Source of the DNA: Endocalyx cinctus
Taxonomy: Eukaryota; Ascomycota; Sordariomycetes; Amphisphaeriales; Apiosporaceae
Assembly: GCA_001600455.1 (NCBI GenBank)
Contig: BCKC01000006.1
Coordinates: 3,576,114 to 3,640,113 of the forward strand
Direction of reading: 5' to 3'
DNA: 64,000 nucleotides
Positions 45,435 through 64,000 of the stretch are shown here, one piece after another (the stretch's first letter is position 1; each line of letters begins with the position of its first letter). Both the position numbers and the translations under genes were made by a program. The notes under the pieces are model-generated. The model did not search any database. It was not told where the DNA came from and saw nothing but the letters and a program-made list of their open reading frames with translations.

Positions 45435-46678
45435 GACGAGCTACCACTTCATGACTACAAAGTATCAGCAGTTTGGTAAAAGCTTTTATACATAAATGGA
45501 AATATACTTAAGTATGACCTGGATGTGGAAAAACTCAACTTCCTGGCAATCAGATATTAGGTCATAAACACATAGTTATTGAAATTCAGCGCTCTTAGTG
45601 CTCCATTAACTATATATATAACGGTGAAATGCGTCAATGTGGAGAATTATATTAGTACAAAGTGAAAATAATCTTACCATAACGGTCCGAGAGATTGCCT
45701 AACCCGTGAAACAAACACCTCAAACCACCGAGTAGGATGTATAAAATCTTGAGCTCCCCTCTTTAAACATAAAAGTGAGTAATTTCTTAAGTCTTAAGTA
45801 AATTCTAATTTTATAGTAATAATTTCTATGATCGCAGTTCTCTTAAACAAAAAGTCCACCACTATGCCAAAATAAAGATGATTAAATTTAACGCGACAGA
45901 AAACTACTACCAAAGTTTGACGTTAATAAGTCAATATTTGTACTTAATGGTTCATCTCCATCATGAGGGTTTGTATCACTAAATAGTAGTCACATGTCAC
46001 AATCTAGGATTGAAGAGACAGCTTGTAATGTAATTATTCCTGTTGGAGAACCTGCTTACTTAAGGGGATTATAATGATTATACAAGCTTCGCATGCAAGA
46101 TATATCATAACCACTTAACCTAGAGGGTAATTAGGAGATAAAAAGACGCAAGTTAAAGAAAGGAAAAAGGATGAAGCGCACGCGGGAACGGGGATTTTGG
46201 AAAACGCCGTGAATTATGTTGTATTGTCTTAGAACCGGGCTAATTAGCAAGGATTACGACAGTTTATTCTGTTAACATCTTTGACTGGCATAGGTATACT
46301 GCCCGCTCATATGGTTGTCTCATCTTGCATGAGAAAATCATACCGGGGTAAGCACGCTGATGCTGCATAATTGCTTACCGTGCATGTGTTTTACACATAT
46401 AGTCACGGTGAGCAAGCATAAGATGGATGAAATAGCATGTAGTTACTAGATAAGGAAACGTCTCATAATATTCACATCGTCTTAATCATGCCACGGAGAT
46501 ATTTGGGTGCATGTAGAAAGGTAGTTATATAACAACAATGGCAATGGATATCGTATAATTGAAGAAATGAAACATCAGTGAGATATGTACTCAAGATAGT
46601 AAGAAAATTCTTCGTCAAGTGCTGCAGAGGAATTTGGAAGATACCTTATTCACTTAGCTAAAGAACGCAATTTCGGAC
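45435..46678. other. Intergenic upstream of P450
   Basis: 1,244 AT-rich bases. A single 10-bp match to the tox-box consensus described for ToxE (ATCTCNCGNA, here on the minus strand at 45,686-45,695) lies about 1 kb before the P450 start; one or two such matches are expected by chance in a window of this size. No gene recognised. Confidence 0.5.
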
Positions 46679-48574
46679 ATGGATAGGTTGCCTCACTACT
46701 TTCCAGCTTCGCTAGTGCTGGGGGGGCTTGCTCTCTTCTTCTTGTATCGACTTGCCCTCCCCCGGCCTATCCCCGGCATCCCTTACAATGAAGCAGCAGT
46801 ACGCAGCATTTTTGGTGATATCCCGACGATGATGTCGCATATATCGCGGAAGGGCGACTTTATCTCTTACATTTCAGAGACGATGTCGGTGCTCGATTCG
46901 CCCCTTGTACAGGTGTTCGTGCGCCCGCTAAGGCCAGTCGGTAACAAGCCCATGCTAGTTTTAGCGGACGCACGGGAGACGCAAGACATACTACTCCGAC
47001 GCACCCGAGAATTCGACAGGTCGCCGAGCATGGGTGACCTGGTGTGGGGGCTAGCGCCAAACCACCACATTCACCGACGCACCGAGGACCCGGCTTTCAA
47101 AGCGCAGCGCAGGCTGATCCAGGACCTCATGACACCCGCTTTCCTCCGCGGCGTCGCCGGGCCCACCATCCATCGCAGCACGCAAGTCATGATCGATTTG
47201 TGGAGGGTGAAAAGTCGAGCTGCCAAGGGCAGGCCATTCGGAGCCGCGCTGGACCTCAGCAATGCCGTCATGGACGCCATAACGGCGTTCGCGTTCGGGG
47301 ACGGTTTCAGGTCGAAACATAGCGCCACTAAACCCGCTCTGGAAGCCCTCGAGGCAGCTCTGCGTGCGGACCCAGATTTCATCTCGCGCGAGAAAGCGAG
47401 CAAGGAGAACCCGGTCCAATTTCCGAGCTCCCATATGGATGACGTCCTTCAAGCCGTGATGGAACTGACAGATACGATCGGCGAACTGCAGGGTAATCCC
47501 CTACCAAAACCGACCTGGATGTATGTGCTACGAAAGCCTCGAATCCGCAAGGCGTGGAGGCTTAAAGAAGCCTGTATCCTTGAGGAGTTGGATTTATCCT
47601 TCAAGCGTGTGGGAAAGGGTGGGGGCAGTGGTTCTAAAGTTGGTTCTGCTGTGGACCACATGGTTCAGCGGGAGATCAATATGGCGGAGAAGCAGAATCG
47701 GACGCCGGATCATCTTTCCAGGATCATAGTCGATGAGGTGGGTCCAATCCTGTTTAATCTCGAAATATCTCTGCTCTCGTTTCTGATTTTTGCTCCTCCA
47801 TTTCCATTACTCTCAACTTCCAAATATACCGTACTAACCTCTCTTTCTCTCTCCCAGATTTTTGGATTCATCTTTGCCGGCCACGAAACAACGAGTACCA
47901 CGCTTAGTTGGGCAGTCAAATTCCTAGCCGATCACCCGGCCGCCCAAACCAGGCTTCGGAAAGAGCTTCAATCGTCGTTTGGAGCCACCAGTCCGTCCTT
48001 TGAAGCCATAAATAATAACCACTTGCCATACCTCGACGCGGTACTAGAGGAGATATTGCGTTGCGCAACCACCGCCTCCGTGGTCGATAGGATCGCCCTG
48101 GTGGATACTGAGATATTGGGACACGAAGTTCCTAAAGGAACTGTTGTAACGTTTTTGACCAGCGGTCCAAGCATGTTGAACAAGGCATTTCCGATCAACG
48201 ACGCAGTACGCAGCGCCAGCAGTCAAGAGAGACTGGAAAAGGACAAATCGTGGGACAATGACGGTATCGCTGCTTTCAAACCCGAAAGGTGGCTAGTTTC
48301 AAAAGTGACCGGTAAACCGGACGTGACTGGTCTCGAATCTGAAGATATCAACTTCGACAGCACCGCTGGCCCCCAGCTAGCTTTTGGTCTGGGTGTTCGA
48401 GGTTGCTTTGGTAAGAAACTCGCGTACCTGCAAATAAAGATTGTTTTGGCACTGGTTATCGCAAACTTTGAATTACTCCCTTGCCCTCAAAGCTTGTCAT
48501 CGTACGAAGCCGAACTGTTCGAGGTGAAAAGGCCCAATCAGAGCTATGTACTGCTAAGTGAGATTGGTTTGTAA
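46679..48574 (+). CDS. Cytochrome P450 monooxygenase (591 aa)
   Basis: Exons join(46679..47737, 47858..48574). The start has an ER anchor (SLVLGGLALFFLYRLAL) followed by the proline-rich hinge PRPIPGIPY. The I-helix is IFGFIFAGHETTSTTLSW, the ExxR motif EEILR, then FKPERW, and the haem loop is FGLGVRGCFGKKL with the proximal Cys at about residue 536. The 120-nt intron is a multiple of three with no stop, so retention would add a hydrophobic 40-residue insert just before the I-helix; GTGGGT and the pyrimidine-rich CTCTCCCAG acceptor support removal. It is a microsomal monooxygenase using electrons from CPR. In this cluster it probably oxidises the polyketide. The CYP family cannot be assigned by eye. 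Confidence 0.9.
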   Translation: MDRLPHYFPASLVLGGLALFFLYRLALPRPIPGIPYNEAAVRSIFGDIPTMMSHISRKGDFISYISETMSVLDSPLVQVFVRPLRPVGNKPMLVLADARETQDILLRRTREFDRSPSMGDLVWGLAPNHHIHRRTEDPAFKAQRRLIQDLMTPAFLRGVAGPTIHRSTQVMIDLWRVKSRAAKGRPFGAALDLSNAVMDAITAFAFGDGFRSKHSATKPALEALEAALRADPDFISREKASKENPVQFPSSHMDDVLQAVMELTDTIGELQGNPLPKPTWMYVLRKPRIRKAWRLKEACILEELDLSFKRVGKGGGSGSKVGSAVDHMVQREINMAEKQNRTPDHLSRIIVDEVGPILFNLEISLLSFLIFAPPFPLLSTSKYTVLTSLSLSQIFGFIFAGHETTSTTLSWAVKFLADHPAAQTRLRKELQSSFGATSPSFEAINNNHLPYLDAVLEEILRCATTASVVDRIALVDTEILGHEVPKGTVVTFLTSGPSMLNKAFPINDAVRSASSQERLEKDKSWDNDGIAAFKPERWLVSKVTGKPDVTGLESEDINFDSTAGPQLAFGLGVRGCFGKKLAYLQIKIVLALVIANFELLPCPQSLSSYEAELFEVKRPNQSYVLLSEIGL

Positions 48575-48996: not shown

Positions 48997-50899
48997 TCAC
49001 TCAGCTCGACACAGTCTTCCATCTGACGCTACAGACCAATAGTCACTTCCCACAACTCCGGGTCCGTACAGTAGGACATTCGAGTCATATTTCTTTTTAA
49101 CATCTAGGAGTCTGTTGTAGTTGGTGCCATAGAAATCCTGCTTCCAATATTCTAGGTCCAGGGTGCCCTCGTTAACATAGATGCCGCTGTCCGGCATCAA
49201 ACGGCGCAGAGTATCTTGGCCGGCGAGCACTCCGGAATTCAATGTGTCTAGAAGCTCGAGAGAGGCGGCCGGATCCCAGAGAACCGTAATACCAAGGGAG
49301 TATACCATACTTCGCCACGCCGGTAGGACAGAATTGTCGAGACCAGTATGGGATACGGACAGGTCAGCAGCGTTGCCGCCGATGGTAAATTCACCCTCCT
49401 GACTGCTTACTATGCCTCGTAAGGCTTCGATGAGCTGTTGACGCTGATCTTCCGATGTAACGGTGGATAACGGAACAAACCGGCCACCGATAAGAGTGTT
49501 GGTCGGAAAGTTCCCGTAAGGCAGGTCGGCTGTTGAAGATGTGAAGTAGTCGTAATAGGTCGGCTCGTAGACCACATCTTTTGCGTACTCCACCCCAAGT
49601 TGATCTAATTGAGCTATCAGGGGCGCCAGATTGTCCGGTATCACCGTATCGTTGCCGTTAGGCACTCTAAGCAACACTAGCATCGTCTGTGCCGAAATGG
49701 TAAAGGTACTGCTAAAACCGGGGATGCTGTTCCACTTTGGCAACATGACGTGCCAGGCGTCGACGGCCGCCCAGTATGCATCGTCGTTGGTGTTGTTAAA
49801 AGTCAATGAAGCGCCGGCAACAGGGCCATCAGGATGCGCCCGAGTTGTCTGCGATAAGACAACAGCGTACGCGCTGCCACCGCCACCGTTAAGGGCCCAG
49901 AAAAGGTCGGAATTCTCCGTTGGCGATGCTACCAGATATCCTTTGTCTGGTGTTACCACTTCAAACTCAAGTGTATTATCGGCTGCTAGGCCATAAAGCC
50001 CCATTAGAGGACCGTGACCACCTCCGCTAACGTAACCGCCGGCAAGCCCGACTGTCGGGCACAGGCCGCCCGTCACTCTCAGGTTGTGCGATGCGGCGGC
50101 TGCATAGACCTCGTATGCCTGTACTCCAGCACCGAGGCGAAATGCGGGCCCCGTGTAGCTGTCGCCAGTGTAGTTCAGAAATGATATCGACTTGAGATTA
50201 TGCATCCATAGAGATAGGGAGCCCTTTCCGTTGGAGCGTCCGAGATAGTCATGACCCGTATTTTTGACAACGAGTCGAATATTACTTTCCTCAGCAAACT
50301 TGAGTCCAGCAATAACGTCCTCGGCACTGCTTACGTCAATGGCGTAATTCGGGAGGTTGCCCATTGTGCACGCTGAGCTGTCCTGGATGACACTAGAGTT
50401 TGCAAAGGGCGTGCATGAATTATTGAGAAATAACGGGGACATGACTTCTACCGGATTTGGAAAACTGAATTTGCATCATAATATTAGAATCAAACCTATT
50501 CTTCCTGCTAAGTTTTGGACATGACTAATTGATAAGAAGAGGGGAGAAAAAGGAGGTGAGAGGGGGGTAGGGAGGGAGGAGAGTAACGCACTATGTTTCC
50601 TCCTTGGTCCAAACACTTCGAAGCATTGTGCATTCTTCGGCACTAGCCGCAGTACCATAACAAACCTTGGCGATTGGGCTACCGGCGATAAGCCGCCCGT
50701 TTACTGACTGGTTCAATTTCTGCCATTGTTGCTCCGAGGGCCAGTTCGTGTCCTCTGGTAAGTAATGGCAACTTGGCGCCGTATTCGCTCGAGACAGAAT
50801 ATTAGGGGAAGATATAGCCACCCTTGCGCTAACGAGTGTCGTAAAGATGACTAGGGCAGCTATTTGCCTCCATAAGGCCGCGGTAATAGAAATAGGCAT
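48997..50899 (-). CDS. Secreted BBE-like FAD-linked oxidase (591 aa)
   Basis: Exons complement(join(48997..50464, 50592..50899)); the intron joins KEETY to FPNPVEVMSPLF. A signal peptide is visible (WRQIAALVIFTTLVSARVA). The FAD domain carries both residues expected for bicovalent flavin attachment: His in KNTGHDYLGRS (about residue 174) and Cys in GGLCPTVGLAGG (about residue 238), followed by SGGGHGPLMGLYGLAADN. The berberine-bridge C-terminus (NEGTLDLEYWKQDFYG, NYNRLLDVKKKYD) is complete. The enzyme oxidises alcohols or forms C-C/C-O bonds, producing H2O2, in the secretory pathway or outside the cell. Several N-glycosylation sequons agree with export. Such oxidases are recurrent late-stage enzymes in fungal clusters; the substrate is unknown. 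Confidence 0.92.
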
Positions 50900-53916: not shown

Positions 53917-55199
53917 TCTCCGTCATAAAGCAGCCAAAGTAGATTAGATTTACAGAAGAGTTACCCATTGCTCTAAACGTATGGCTCAGAGGCAGGTGGC
54001 GTAACATTCAAAAGTTGCGCCCTACTCATTGAGATACCGGAGAGTTGCCCATTAGCAGCTTACATGATATTCACCTGCGATCAATACCTCAACGTAACAT
54101 AGCTATCTTAGTTTCTAGGTTTTCTGGGACATTGATTTATGAATAGAAATGCATGGACTCTTGAATCAAAGTTCTTTCTCGCGCATTAGAAGCAATTAAA
54201 CCGAGTTCACTAAATATTTACGTGCGTAACTAACAAACGCTTTCCATAAGGAACAAAAGCCACCAGTTCTCCTTATCCAACAGCGAATCAAAATTGTCCC
54301 ATTATTTCCAAAATTTCTCCTTAAGGCAAACTTGTACCCCTCTTATAGCATCACCTCTTATCGTCGTATTAGGTAATTGACTTCACCCTCGGTATGTGAA
54401 TACATGTAAGCCTCTAGTAAAGCAAAAGTCCCATACGACCTGATAGGCTATAACGGCTTATGTAGTCTCCACTTATGCCCGAGTTTACGAAGGATCTTCT
54501 ACACGCCTCTACACGTACGGAACCATCTTTAAAAACCCCTGTGGTTTTTTTATCTTATTTGTTTTGTGTAGCACAGTAAAAATTGTAAACTTAGGACGTT
54601 TTGTGGGCTACAAGCTTACCTCTCGTCTTATCTTTTATGTGTAACACAGTATAAATTATAAACTCAGGATGTTCTGTGAGCTGCAAGCTTACTCCTAATT
54701 TCAGAAGCTTGTACTGTGTTGTATACGTATGCATAGAGATTACCTACATAGAGGCTAGTTCTAGACATGATCTTGTTGGTTTCCTTACCTTGCATATTAG
54801 GATGAAGGTTGGTTCCAGAACATCTGCGGGCAGTAATCATAGTACATAGTATGCATCATGAGAGTTGAATTCTTATCGTCAGATATGACGCCCACCGCCG
54901 TCTTCTCGTATCATAATCCTGCATAGGCCTTTTGCAACTCTGGGTGAGACTACAGGAATCAAAGCTGATAAAATATCATCTTGCTTAATCAGTAAGCACA
55001 TATACGTATAGTATAGCTGAGATAGACACCTAGTTAGGTATGTAAATAATAAGGTATCTAATGTGAAGGCATTTATTGAAGATTAGCTTCACGAGTACTA
55101 TAGGTAATATATTTCGTTTCGTCTTCACATGATTATGTTCAAGAACATTTAATTCTTATCACCCTTGAGTTGCACAGCCCACATTACTAAACTCACACG
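53917..55199. other. Intergenic with a 73-bp tandem duplication
   Basis: About 1.3 kb before the acyltransferase gene. Apart from the tandem repeat at 54,553-54,698 no structure or gene recognised. Confidence 0.55.
54553..54698. repeat. Diverged 73-bp tandem duplication
   Basis: Copy 1 (54,553-54,625) and copy 2 (54,626-54,698) align without gaps. Shared anchors at exactly 73-bp offset include CACAGTA, TAAAC and CAAGCTTAC. Most mismatches are C/T or G/A transitions. Confidence 0.8.
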
Positions 55200-56524
55200 A
55201 TGGTTGCCAGGGCGATCGGATCTTTGGTGGTCTGCCACTCGGTGACGCTCGGCTCGGTAATCTGGGCCCTTGCCTTTACTCCGACCAACTCGTTTTACCG
55301 AGTTGCCTTAGTACCCTTCCTTGCAGTTATCGCCGTCTACCTTATTCCTCTCAACGTTGCGCAATTTCCCCATGAAGTCATATCCAATCTCATGAATATG
55401 CACACCGTCGGTCTGGTCTTCCAAATCGTCGATTTCGGTCTCATCGGTGGGTGGAGCTGGCCCGCGCGCGGGCCAGCGTCCACCCGCGGTGGACAGCGAA
55501 ACGCAGACCTCGGCATCACCGAGAGGAAAAAGCTGGATCCCCGCCCCGAAACTCTGCCATCCCGGCTTGAGTGGGGACTCTTTGCAGCGACGGCTTGGCG
55601 CGCTCCGGATACGATTTGGGAGGTTAAGGGCATACCACGTGTTCGGCGGGACCCAGGCCTAGTTCATTTCCTGGCTCTCAATTTACTCAAGTTTGTCGTC
55701 TCCCTGCTCGTCATCGACGCACTATCGACGATCGGCGGCGAGCCACCCAATCTTGAGGAGAGTGCTGTCATTTTCGAATGGAACAAAGTTCGATTCCTGT
55801 CCCGCTTACATGAAGTAACGCTACACGAGGCCATATCAAGAGCTGTAATAATGTTTTTATGCTGGGTGACGACTTATTATTCGATCCAGGCATTTTATTG
55901 CGTCTCAGCCATACTTGGCGTTGCTTCAGGTCTAACGAGTATCAGCTCTTGGCCTCCCATGTTCGGATCGATAAGGGAAATGTACACAGTGCGTAATTTT
56001 TGGGGGTGAGTTATCATTTCACTGGTTTGGTTATTACCCACCGAAATTCCAAAAGTACTGACGAGATTGCTCCCTAAAACAGCACATTTTGGCACCAAGC
56101 ACTCCGCCAAAAGCTCGGCGGTCCAGCTTACTACACGACGTACTCGCTACTTAGGCTCAGAAAAGGCGGCATCGTAGGTAGATACCTCAACACCTTCCTG
56201 GTGTTTTCGTTATCAGGAATCTACCACCTCGCCGCCCAGGAGCATGGGCACGGTATCCGGTGGGCATACACCGGTACCTTACGCTTTTTCTGCACCCAGA
56301 CGCTGGGTATCATGCTCGAGGATGCCGTACAAGCGATATTACGCCGCTCAATAAGTTACAAGCCAAGCCGTTCAACCACAGCTATTGGATATCTATGGGT
56401 AGTGGTTTGGCTATACTGGTCATCGGCCGCCTGGTTTTATCCTCAGCTGCAGGTGGCTTCCGAGAAGGGAAAGCTTTTGCCTTTTAGCGTGGCGGAGCCA
56501 TTGCTTCGTTTAGCGTTCAAATAA
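55200..56524 (+). CDS. Wax-synthase-like membrane-bound O-acyltransferase (415 aa)
   Basis: Exons join(55200..56005, 56083..56524). The splice creates RNFWGTFWHQALRQKLGG, the signature of the wax-synthase domain (usually RSFWGRxWHQ). Further on is LVFSLSGIYHLAAQE, with the conserved catalytic His. Several hydrophobic helices are present (for example FLAVIAVYLIPL, LALNLLKFVVSLLVI, AFYCVSAILGVASGL). Enzymes of this type transfer acyl groups, often acetyl, from CoA to hydroxyls of terpenoids and polyketides in fungal clusters, acting in the ER membrane. A late O-acylation step fits the context. The first exon contains an unusual palindrome-rich stretch (GCCCGCGCGCGGGCC, about 55,460). Confidence 0.87.
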
Positions 56525-57030: not shown

Positions 57031-58055
57031 TTATTTGACATTTCCTTGAAGTGCGTTATTGACAAAATTTATCATCGCAGCCAGTACATCTGGAAGTGCT
57101 TCACCAGAGAGAACATTCATATGCCCAGCTCCTTTAGCGATGTGGAGCTCCTTTGGACATTTGATCATGTTGAAAACCTCTTCCTGGTCCTCCGGTAATG
57201 ATACGTTATCTAGCTCAGGGATGACCATCATAGTGGGTATATCCTCCAACATTTCATCTAGCAAATCTCTAGGACGAAACAATGCCATCTTGTGGTACGA
57301 CTGCAGTGTGATACGATCGCGAAAGTTGGCATGGCCACGTTCAACAGCGGTCCTCATCAGTATGTATGCTTCCTGACCACCAGGCCCCCCTGAGCCCGCA
57401 TAACCAATCGGATTCTCGCCTTTGCTGTTGAAGGGCTGGAGTGTGAATGGCTCGTTACCTCTCAGCTGAGATTGGCGGTCTTTCATGAGCTGTGCGAACG
57501 CCATTTTTCTCTTGTCCGGTCTGATGAATTTGAAAATCGGACAGACCATCACGAGGGCGGCGGCTCGTCTATCGATTGCAGCTGCGCATGCACTTATTGT
57601 ACCCCCCGAGGACATCCCCCAAAGTACTATACGCCGCGAATCGACGCTGGGAAGTGTTGCCGCGTAGCTTACGACATCTAGGATTGGTCAGAATGAAGGA
57701 ATTCTCATGAATATGCTCAAATAATTACCTGATATATCTTCTGAGTTTTGCCAGGGATCGATTTGATTACGTGGAGAGCCACCGCTACCTCCTATGCTTC
57801 TCGAATCGTAGAGGAGTACATTAAAACCTGCTGACTGAAACCCGATGGCTGTGTCAAAAAGACTCATTTCTTTCACGCAGTTGAGCTAGAAATTCGTCAG
57901 CTGGCTGGAGGCGCGAAAACTGAAGCATAGTTGCTTACGCCGTGTGTCATTATGATGGCTGGTGCAGGCCCATCCACCCCCCAAAACCATCCTTCAAGGG
58001 TAATACCGTCAATGGTCTTACATTCAACAGTCTTATGAGGCCTCAGGGAAGCCAT
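57031..58055 (-). CDS. Alpha/beta hydrolase, possible polyketide hydrolase or transferase (306 aa)
   Basis: Exons complement(join(57031..57677, 57729..57885, 57939..58055)). The order of motifs is complete: oxyanion region IIMTHGLNCVKEM (created by the first splice), LLYDSRSIGGSGG, nucleophile elbow WGMSSGGTI (GxSxG), Asp in IPELDNVSLP and His in KGAGHMNVL. An in-frame ATG at 58,082 would add nine residues (MFSSPTNLT). It is divergent from the HR-PKS, with a 936-bp shared promoter. Stand-alone hydrolases of this size, next to HR-PKSs, release or transfer the acyl chain from the carrier protein, as in the fumagillin cluster; similar hydrolases occur in Alternaria host-toxin clusters. That role is inference, since the partner ACP is missing here. 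Confidence 0.87.
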
Positions 58056-58991: not shown

Positions 58992-61900
58992 ATGGGGAAA
59001 TCGGAGCAGTACGAAAAAGAGCCTATTGCTATCGTGGGCTTTGCCTGCCGGCTTCCGGGAGGTAATTACAGCCCGCAGAAGCTCTGGGATTTTCTCGAAC
59101 GTGGTGATATAGCCAGTAGCATCGTCCCGCCAACGCGATTTAACCTGGACGGACACTATGACGGATCCCTTAAGCCCAGGACTATGCGTCAGCCCGGTGG
59201 CATGTTCCTCAAGGACATCGACATCGCCGACTTTGATGCTGGATTTTTCGAGGTCGGAGGAGCCGAGGCCACCGCTATGGATCCGAACCAACGGCAAATG
59301 CTTGAAGTCGTGTTCGAGGGACTGGAGAATGCGGGAATATCGATGGATAAAATCGATAATTCGTTAGTAGGGTGCTACGTCGGTTCCTACGCGGCGGATT
59401 ACGGAGACATGGCAAGTCGAGACCCGGAGGACCGGCCCCCCGGTAACTCGCTTGGAATTGCTCGAACCGTTCTCGCAAACCGTATTAGTCACTTTTTCAA
59501 CCTTAAAGGCCCGAGTATAACCCTCGATACAGCATGTTCCGGGAGTCTAGTCGGTCTCGACTTGGCATGTAGATCCTTACAGACCGGTGCTATTGACATG
59601 GGCATCATCGCAGCCTCCAACTTGTACATGAGTCCAGAACATCTCATCGATGCGGGCAGCGTGGGAGGGGCTCATTCTCCAACCGCCTTGTGTCACACGT
59701 TCGACGCAAGTGCTGACGGATATGTAAAGGCCGAGGCAGTCGGCACAATAATCGTCAAGCGACTCTCCGACGCTATCAGAAATCGCGACCCGATACGGGC
59801 GGTGGTTCTCGGCACCGCATCAAACCACAATGGACGGACCGCGGGTATTGCCAGCCCTAACGCCGAGTCTCAGGCTCTCGCAATTAGAGCGGCCTACGCA
59901 AACGCCGGAATCGCCGACTTCAACCAGACTACGTATCTCGAATGCCACGGCACGGGCACCATAGCCGGCGACGCCAACGAAGTCCGAGGGGCTGCCGCCG
60001 TTTTTGCTGCCACACGCCCCGCTGACAAACCCCTCATAATTGGCTCCGTGAAAAGTAATATCGGTCACTCGGAGCCGGCGGCTGGTGTATCCGGACTATT
60101 GAAAGCTGTCATGTCGATAGAAAAAGGGGTAATTCCGGGCAATCCAACCTTCAAAAACCCTAGTCCCAAAAGTACGTATGAACATGAACCCTCCCAACAC
60201 ACCGTCCCCGCGCTTGCTAACATGACGTGATTTTAGTCGACTTTGCCGGCTGCAAGGTGAAAGCGTCTAAAAGCCTCATACCCTGGCCAGCCGACTCTCC
60301 ACGAAGAGCTAGTATCAATTCATTTGGTATCGGAGGTGCAAACGCTCACGCTATAGTCGAGAAGGCTAGGCCACAGGACGCGGTATACCACGTTTCATCG
60401 TACCGCGATCCCGAAGATGAGTTTACATTTGACGATGATGAAACCTCCACGCCTAGTCTCCTCTTATTGTCGGCGAACGACGCTACTTCTCTCCGTGGCA
60501 GCATTAAAGCTCTATGCAACCATCTTGCTAACCCACGAGTAAAAGTCGACCTATCTGACGTAGCATATACCCTGTCAGAGAGGCGGACACACCTCTGGCA
60601 CCGCGCGTACGTCACAACTCGCAGCACCGAGATCAACGAGTCTGATTTCGTCCTGGCCAAGAAAAAACACCAAGCACCCAAGGTCGGTCTTGTTTTCACA
60701 GGTCAGGGTGCGCAATGGCCTCAGATGGGCAAAGAACTTTTGGAATTCTTTCCCTTCACGAAGTCAATTCTTGAAGAGCTGGACCGGGCACTCCAAACGC
60801 AGGCCGACGAGGCACCGCAATGGTCCCTCGTCACGGAACTGATCGAGCCTCGGTCCACCGACCACATGCGAAAGCCAGAGTTTTCGCAATCACTCGTGAC
60901 GGCTCTACAACTTTGCATCTTGGCCGTGTTGGAATCCTGGAACGTCAAGCCTAGCAGCGTGGTAGGCCACTCTTCCGGTGAAATTGCGGCCGCATACGCA
61001 GCTGGTTGGCTTGATCGTGCCGGTGCTATTAAAGCAGCCTATTACCGCGGTCGGGCCGCCGCCAATCTCCAGGGCAAGATTGATACCGATGTCGGTATGC
61101 TTGCCGTTGGTGTAGGTGCCGACGTAGCCTCTCTATTTCTAGAGAAGTATAGCGGAAAAGCTTGGATTGCCTGTTTCAATAGCCCTACCAGCTTGACGAT
61201 TTCCGGCAAGAAACCCGCCCTCGAAGCCTTGGCGGAAGAGATCAAGGCCGCGGGCCACTTTGCCAGGCTACTGATGGTAGATATGGCTTACCACTCCGAG
61301 CTCATGGGTCCCGTCGGAGATGAATACGTCCGACTTTTCGGGCATGATGCCTCGTTCAAGACATTGGACGGTGCCTCGTCACCCGGCGTCAGCATGTACT
61401 CATCCGTTACGTGCTCGAAACAAGACACAACTACCGATGCTCGATATTGGGCGGCCAATATGCTTTCCCCCGTCCGGTTTTCGGAGGCGCTTACGGAATT
61501 GGTGAAGCAAGACTCGCCTGATATTCTTATCGAGGTTGGGCCGTCGGGTGCGCTCTCCGGTCCCGTCTCCCAAGTGCTCAAATCCGTGTCTGGCGGTGAA
61601 AATGTCACCTATTTCGCTTCTTGGTCACGCGGTGCAAACGCGGGCAAGACCCTTTACGATGCCGCCGGCAGGCTCTTCGTCGCTGGTTATCCCATCGACA
61701 CGACCTCCGTTAACCGGTACAACGACGAGGTCCGCACGGTCATCGACCTGCCCAATTACGCCTGGAATCACACCATAAAATACTGGCACGAAAGTGCCGC
61801 CAGTAAAGACTGGCGGTTCCGAAAGTACGTGGCCCACGATCTCTTGGGGAGCAAAATTCTCGGCACCCCTTGGCACACCCCCGTATGGCGCAATCGCCTG

Positions 61901-63905
61901 AACGTTAATAACGTACCCTGGTTGCTAGAGCACAAGATGGGCGGCGACGCTATCATGCCCGCAGCCGGGTTCCTGACGCTTGGGCTGGAGGCGTTATATC
62001 AAAAGCACTGCGCACTCCTTCCCGACGATAAAGTTGCTCATCCCGCCATCAACGAGCTGTCCTACCGCTTCCGGAACGTTCGCTTCAGTCGCGCCATGGT
62101 GATCGAAAGAGGCAAAGATGTGCTATTGATGCTAAATTTGCACAAGGTTCCCGGTAACAGCGACTGGCACGAGTTCCGTATCTCGTCGACCGAGGCGGAT
62201 GTAGTCTCGGAACACTGTTGGGGTATGGTTCAGATCAACGAGCAAGTGGAAGAAACTCTCGAGGATCTCACCTTGAAGTCTCCCCAGTCTGCTAAATTAT
62301 GGTACAAGGTGGAGCGCGAGATCGGCATGGACTTCGGGCCCGCGTTCCAGAAACTAGTCAGTATCGAGGCCACCAGCGGTCAACGCGCATGCCGTACCGT
62401 AGTATCGCTTTCGCCACCCGAATCGGCATGGTCGCCCCAGTCTTATTATCCGATCCATCCTGCCGCACTTGACGGCTGCTTCCAGACTCCCATTCCCGCT
62501 AACATGGCAGGAGAACGAATAAACGTAAGGGACGCCATGATTCCTCATATCGTCGACGAAGTCATCATCAACAGGGTACCCTCTAATCTACATCTGGGTA
62601 TATCGACAGCCACTTCTGTTTATTCCGGTCGTGGACGATTAGATCAGGACAAGAGCTGGGTCGCCAACTCTTCCGTCTACGACCCGGAGAGCGGAGAGTT
62701 GCTTATGCGCATCACCGGCCTGAACTACGTCAAATTGGACGTGGCACCGAAGGACGATCCTCATACCTTCCACTGCGTCACCTGGAAGCCGGACATTACG
62801 CTTCTGACGCAGGACCAGGTCATGTATCTCCCGCAAGGAGACTCGTCCGGCAAGAATAAGCTTAACACATTGATAGAGCTCATCGCCTATAAGAGAAGCG
62901 CATTGAGAGTGCTCGAGATCAACCTCGACGCAGCAGATGATTCGTGCTTGTGGTTCGAGGTGACGGTCAACTCGTCAGTCGGAGACGCATATCAGCGGTA
63001 CGATTTTGCCTCGCCAAACCCTAAAACTGTAGTCAACGTACAGGAAAAATACCAGGGGAAGATGAACACTTCCTTCCACTTGGCCAACCCCGGAAGGGAA
63101 GGTCTAGGTCTCGAAACACAGGCAGCATATGATTTGGCTATAATAAAAACGAGCAAGCTGGCGGTCAAAGAGGATGAACTCGCGAAAAACCTGAAGCCGC
63201 TTCTACGCGACGCTGCCCTCACGCTCTTAGTGCCGGCCCACGACAAGACCTATACGCCAGACTCGGAGAGACCCGAAGGTCTCGACGAGGGAAACACCAA
63301 GACGGGCTCCCCGGATCTCGATACACCTGGAACGCTTTCTAGCTCCTGGGGATCAGAGATAGACGGGCCTTCGGGGTCCACGAGCGCTACGTCTTGGGAC
63401 GATAAGGCCGCTACCCCGCTTTCTGGAGCAAGCAGCCGGTCATTCCTTTGGAAATGTATAGCGAAATCTACCGGCTCCAGTTCCGTCCTAGAGATTGCGG
63501 ACTCCACCGACGCTAGCAACAGCCCGGCATACCTGTTTAGCAGGCTCAACATTAAGAAACCGGAGACCGAACCGAATCGGAACCTCGTCGTTGCTCGTCT
63601 TTCCAAAGAGAGCCCGAAGAGCCTCCCGCCCTCCCTTCGAGCTAGATTGGAGACGTCCGGCTGGTCGATCACCTACCAGACCTACCCGTTCTCGTTCCTC
63701 AGCAGCGCGTCCAAAGCCGTCGTGCTAGTCCTCGACGAGCTGTACAAGCCGGTACTGAGAAACGCCAGCGAAGAGCAGTGGGACGCGGTCAAGGACCTCG
63801 TCAACTCGGGCCACCATCTCCTGTGGGTTACGAAGGGGGCGCAACACCGCGTAACCGACCCGGACAACGCCCTCATTCACGGCTTATTCCGAGTCGCGCG
63901 CAACG
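58992..63905 (+). CDS. Highly reducing polyketide synthase (KS-AT-DH), cut short by the telomere
   Basis: Exons join(58992..60171, 60237..>63905), about 1,616 codons, whereas HR-PKSs usually have 2,300-2,500. The 65-nt intron joins NPSPK to IDFAGCKVKA. KS: DTACSGSL (Cys182), ECHGTGT (His319), SNIGHSEP (His359). AT: FTGQGAQWPQMG, then GHSSGE (Ser639) and the YHSELM substrate motif. DH: LLEHKMGGDAIMP (HxxxGxxxxP, His959) and HPAALDGCFQ (Asp1139). After DH only a short C-terminal remnant of a methyltransferase-like region is seen, without a SAM-binding GxGxG, then a low-complexity linker and the start of the structural region before ER (LIHGLFRVARN). There the gene runs into TTAGGG repeats, so ER, KR and ACP are missing. 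The frame has no stop; it continues as (Arg-Val)n to the last base. As it stands the enzyme cannot hold a chain on its own ACP. Confidence 0.93.
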
Positions 63906-64000
63906 GGGTTAGGGTTAGGGTTAGGGTTAGGGTTAGGGTTAGGGTTAGGGTTAGGGTTAGGGTTAGGGTTAGGGTTAGGGTTAGGGTTAGGGTTAGGGTT
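63906..64000 (+). repeat. Telomere, (TTAGGG)15
   Basis: GGG followed by 15 perfect TTAGGG units and TT up to the window end. The G-rich strand runs 5' to 3' towards the end, the correct polarity for a right-hand chromosome terminus. No variant repeats, subtelomeric repeat or RecQ-helicase gene lies between the array and the PKS gene body. Confidence 0.98.

Follow-up and report, generated by a model that had tools for sequence, protein, structure and literature searches.

Telomere-capped terminal truncation is a process already known in fungi, of which the PKS end described here would be a further example. In the accessible portions of the Epichloë literature, the lpsA gene of Epichloë amarillans E57 is described as 'truncated at the telomere', and the EAS cluster of Epichloë inebrians is broken by the telomere just after cloA (PMC4417967). 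The available text on Tolypocladium inflatum reports subtelomeric NRPS genes of which one was cut to three of eight modules, with one whole cluster lost, and these losses were judged true because telomere repeats were present (PMC6367777). In Pyricularia, the accessible data give seeds of 1 to 4 bases for de novo telomeres in 19 of 24 rDNA events and seeds in 17 of 23 truncated MoTeRs, five of the six exceptions ending in C (PMC7367193), and telomere-adjacent sequences are described there as poorly conserved (PMC8381367). Among the titles and abstract openings listed in a literature search, mostly outside the subscription literature, there was no telomere-cut PKS gene, and the 12 papers listed of 70 on the aflatoxin cluster yielded no usable telomere case.

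The contig end analyzed here resembles E. amarillans E57 in that a secondary-metabolite megasynthase gene is cut at the telomere, but lpsA is an NRPS gene of an alkaloid cluster, listed among remnants in the available text, whereas here a PKS frame runs on without a stop codon (PMC4417967). As in E. inebrians, the telomere lies inside a metabolite cluster, though the accessible account of that species describes a complete cloA, with the repeats one base away from its stop codon (PMC4417967). Megasynthase genes were lost at chromosome ends in T. inflatum as well; a direct joint between telomere and broken gene is present in our locus and is not stated in the accessible Tolypocladium text (PMC6367777). 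The truncations of Pyricularia (Magnaporthe) oryzae likewise join single-copy sequence to TTAGGG with short or absent seeds, but those in the available reports were seen in progeny and across strains and were often linked to MoTeR or rDNA, whereas ours comes from one assembly (PMC7367193, PMC8381367).

The window, that is, the whole stretch of DNA analyzed, comprises the terminal 64,000 bases (64 kb) of contig C6 (3,640,113 bases in total) from a genome assembly of 44.8 Mb in 15 contigs. Its position 64,000 is the final base of the contig, and it holds no N bases. From 63,906 to this last base the sequence is in perfect TTAGGG phase, preceded by ...CGC AAC G and opening with GGG; some 15 exact repeats ending a contig are not a product of chance. 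An open PKS frame is joined directly to the perfect repeat, unique internal sequence thus adjoining telomere in the assembly, which confirms what a sequence-only reading of the window had reported. That reading had placed the feature at 63,880 to 64,000; the repeat portion stands from 63,906 onward, but positions 63,880 to 63,905 belong to the PKS (Table 1).

Table 1. Features of the terminal part of contig C6, in window coordinates.
Feature	Position	Strand	Basis
Cytochrome P450 open frame, possible cluster member	46658..48574	+	Pfam PF00067
FAD/berberine-bridge oxidase open frame, possible cluster member	48997..50475	-	Pfam PF01565, PF08031
MBOAT_2 acyltransferase-like gene, two open pieces, possible cluster member	55191..56524	+	PF13813
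Alpha/beta hydrolase open frame beside PKS, possible cluster member	57031..57687	-	Pfam AXE1, Peptidase_S9, Abhydrolase_6 above cut-offs
HR-PKS exon 1: ketoacyl synthase (KS)	58992..60171	+	Pfam PF00109, PF02801; DTACS, HGTGT, NIGH (taken to be KS motifs)
Predicted intron, 65 bases, GTACGT...GCTAAC...TTTTAG	60172..60236	+	Splicing gives KIDFA-type context as in P0052, P0093
HR-PKS exon 2, cut on its 3' side: KS extension, AT, DH, pre-ER stretch	60237..63904	+	PF16197, PF00698, PF21089, PF14765
Expected last native base, the G that opens the conserved Glu codon	63905..63905	+	E next in 116/117 homologs
Telomere repeats, 95 bases, contig end	63906..64000	+	Contig-end sequence

The predicted product of the first exon (P0002) matched both KS halves in Pfam and that of the second (P0001) matched KAsynt_C_assoc, AT, and both DH halves, with no ER, KR, or ACP family among the Pfam matches of the PKS frames. 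This bears out the earlier description of an HR-PKS with KS-AT-DH and without ER-KR-ACP, and identifies the locus as a 5' fragment rather than a working HR-PKS gene. All six motifs that we sought as presumed marks of KS, AT, and DH are present, and the fragment is 57% identical to its homolog P0082 over 1,017 alignment columns. The frame comprises 1,616 codons to 63,904 without a stop; it is open from the predicted intron acceptor into the repeat and continues through the telomere as (Arg-Val)n to the end of the contig. Within the last 1.1 kb of C6 it stays open over 339 codons as far as the junction, compared to 6 to 86 codons for the five other frames that touch it. Any product would be non-stop and non-functional, pointing to loss of function. 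Upstream, a family scan of chosen open frames identified four possible cluster members (Table 1); among the two MBOAT_2 pieces, the second scored above the PF13813 cut-off and the first below it, at 20.1 of 25 bits.

How precisely the gene is cut can be read from an alignment of the 120 homologs listed of 3,040 found. The junction column is crossed by 117 of the 120, the other three having no letter there or an end nearby, so a conserved stretch that is unbroken in the homologs is severed at the junction. Of these 117 homologs, 116 have Glu as the next residue and one has Ser; the lack of this conserved residue here indicates that the PKS gene is cut. Asn, the last native residue of the window, occurs in 5 of the 117. 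Where homologs have a Glu codon the window reads GGG, and given that this codon is GAA or GAG, a native origin is expected only of the first G, at 63,905. That base falls outside the perfect repeat phase, so that any telomere-like seed would amount to no more than a single native G, out of phase. The proposal that GGGG microhomology primed the new telomere is therefore not upheld.

The distal part of the gene was sought, as the sequence-only reading had suggested, with the 764-residue ER-KR-ACP portion of P0082 as a query against the assembly. With 59 of 118 candidates scored, there were 84 matches, of which the best long one reached 33% identity over 577 of 764 residues, the best for the ER segment 51%, and the best short one, which covers 103 residues of the KR part, 54%. 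Between P0082 and the eight relatives chosen for comparison, identity over this piece was 47 to 62%. For the ER segment of P0082 it was 73 to 81% in P0055, P0093, P0106, P0114, and P0120 and 46% in P0073; these six relatives align over at least 76 ER residues, and P0044 and P0052 gave short ER alignments only. Thus, no ortholog-level ER-KR-ACP was found among the scored candidates of an assembly in which 15 of 30 contig ends carry no telomere, ends at which the distal part could have gone unassembled. Some ER-KR pieces (e.g., at C4:4434725, C6:1157858, C10:334935, and C11:1071338) had no KS-AT-DH partner among the 37 of 111 KS-AT-DH candidates scored. Their identities to the query, approximately 31 to 47%, would place them at paralog level, though one of them might conceivably be the orphaned distal piece. 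The PKS DNA itself is single-copy, found once in the genome, which by a criterion given in the available Pyricularia text argues for simple truncation rather than duplicative capture (PMC8381367).

We consider it likely that this chromosome lost the tip of its right arm back to a point in the HR-PKS gene between DH and ER and was capped there by TTAGGG. Terminal loss of the rest of the PKS followed by telomere capping, as first suggested from the sequence, remains the best reading, given the single-copy DNA and the missing ortholog-level distal part. In the sequence of events we propose, the arm would have broken within the gene, between the regions encoding DH and ER, and the new end would have been capped with TTAGGG, most likely by telomerase, from a seed of at most one base. 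All sequence distal to the break, ER-KR-ACP included, would have been lost, and the remaining 5' fragment, reading into the telomere as Arg-Val repeats, would encode no working synthase. The contig end would then correspond to a genuine chromosome terminus of the living strain, with breakage presumably preceding capping.

An alternative, which we regard as unlikely, is that the junction is an effect of assembly, either at an interior telomere-like array or from a minor truncated variant in the culture, with the assembly graph having stopped in shared telomere words. The perfect tract is exactly 95 bases long at 12 of the 15 telomeric ends, irrespective of phase, and these equal lengths are probably an assembler signature rather than biology. 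The default k of ALLPATHS-LG is 96, and a graph assembler with this setting would leave 95 bases at a k-mer knot. If this is the origin of the signature, the junction words come from actual reads, but the assembly would show a terminus and a long interior array in the same form. Other contig ends stop in near-identical repeats. Against this, three of the 15 ends do not fit a simple k-mer picture: C7R has 95 bases from its first repeat but a G-run within, leaving a perfect suffix of 32, and the perfect suffixes of C9R and C15R are 62 and 124. Of 203 matches to three TTAGGG units, 199 lie in the contig-end stretches examined, all at the 15 telomeric ends, so that with at most four elsewhere there is no long interior array. 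The sole listed array outside the ends, at C1:4495470-4495493, has four units. In the available Pyricularia text, interior arrays exceeding four units are described as extremely rare outside foxtail strains (PMC8381367). Nor did the far side of such an array, in the form of an ortholog-level ER-KR-ACP, appear among the scored candidates.

Less probable still is that the broken end gained its repeats from another telomere, through recombination or end joining, instead of by telomerase extension. The weakness of the seed would suit such an origin, and the accessible Pyricularia text documents that failed ends can undergo duplicative repair (PMC8381367). However, the sequence beyond the junction is pure repeat and includes no captured subtelomere, the PKS DNA was found once, and among de novo telomeres of Pyricularia a counted seed is likewise missing from 5 of the 24 rDNA events and from 6 of the 23 truncated MoTeRs, as far as the available data show (PMC7367193). 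That the truncated PKS is maintained as a useful product, for instance a KS-AT-DH fragment working with other enzymes, is highly improbable despite its long open frame and the presence of the motifs sought, as it has neither ACP nor stop codon and the contig stops too soon to accommodate a normal 3' end.

If the favored terminal truncation is accepted, its age can be bounded. Across 4,848 coding bases there are zero stops, and the frame is in register with the homologs. Assuming free drift since the break and zero lesions, the bound on neutral divergence at 95% confidence is about 0.5% if indels are assumed to be 10% of substitutions and 1.7% with no indels. The earlier view of a recent event is therefore compatible with the intact frame, but recency itself is bounded rather than established. 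No close relative with an intact locus was found; by RPA2 (an RNA polymerase I subunit) the fungus falls near Xylariales, a Daldinia protein at 86% being the best among the 120 listed of 3,192 found.

Telomere repeats are present at 15 of the 30 contig ends. We compared the contig-end stretches examined with one another (6 to 8.6 kb each, 1.1 kb for C6R; matches longer than 150 bases at E up to 1e-10) and found no such block common to any two of the 15 telomeric ends, every match involving at least one end without a telomere. Telomere adjoining unshared sequence is therefore the rule in this genome, though the comparison is biased in that subtelomeres common to several ends would be poorly assembled. 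The sequence-only reading had drawn attention to the missing subtelomeric filler, which holds as an observation at C6R but does not single the event out as unusual. Some contig ends are near-identical in blocks reaching 6.6 kb: C10R and C15L share 6,610 bases at 99.9%, and C8L and C8R also end in near-identical repeats; these four contig ends seem to stop in unresolved repeats.

A second telomere, at C5L, probably cuts a P450 gene on its 5' side, as the p450 profile is matched at 374 to 449 of 462 only and approximately 46 residues precede the match back to the junction, in a peptide assembled across a presumed intron. The telomeres at C7R and C9L may also cut genes; Pfam gave no family for either junction frame. 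Frame length alone is no proof of a broken gene at C7R, where 128 codons are open, given approximately 0.2 such frames expected by chance among 90 frames at 15 ends (estimated by hand). Among other pieces near the ends, one at C1L looks by eye like a decayed LINE and had no Pfam match, and an ER-KR PKS piece full of stops lies at C2:1357-2928, 1.3 to 2.9 kb from the C2L telomere. A junction of GC followed by TTAGGG was noted post hoc at 5 of 15 telomeres (C2L, C3L, C6L, C7L, and C7R); Pyricularia truncations without a seed likewise tended to end in C in the accessible data (five of six exceptions, PMC7367193).

The C6 terminus provides a base-resolution example of a fungal chromosome end erasing a natural-product gene, in which the conserved Glu codon allows the breakpoint to be placed to within about one base. 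It also carries a warning that telomeres of a uniform 95 bases may reflect the assembly method. Given that no block longer than 150 bases is shared among the 15 telomeric ends, that cuts occur at C6R in a PKS and probably at C5L in a P450 gene, and that a PKS piece lies near C2L, we tentatively raise the possibility, in our view a doubtful one, that chromosome ends in this lineage near Xylariales may undergo repeated rounds of breakage and capping, without a subtelomere common to them, and that metabolite genes on the arms may thereby be eroded one at a time. Together with the probable second case at C5L, the C6 end makes it possible to test the rate of such renewal in sister strains.
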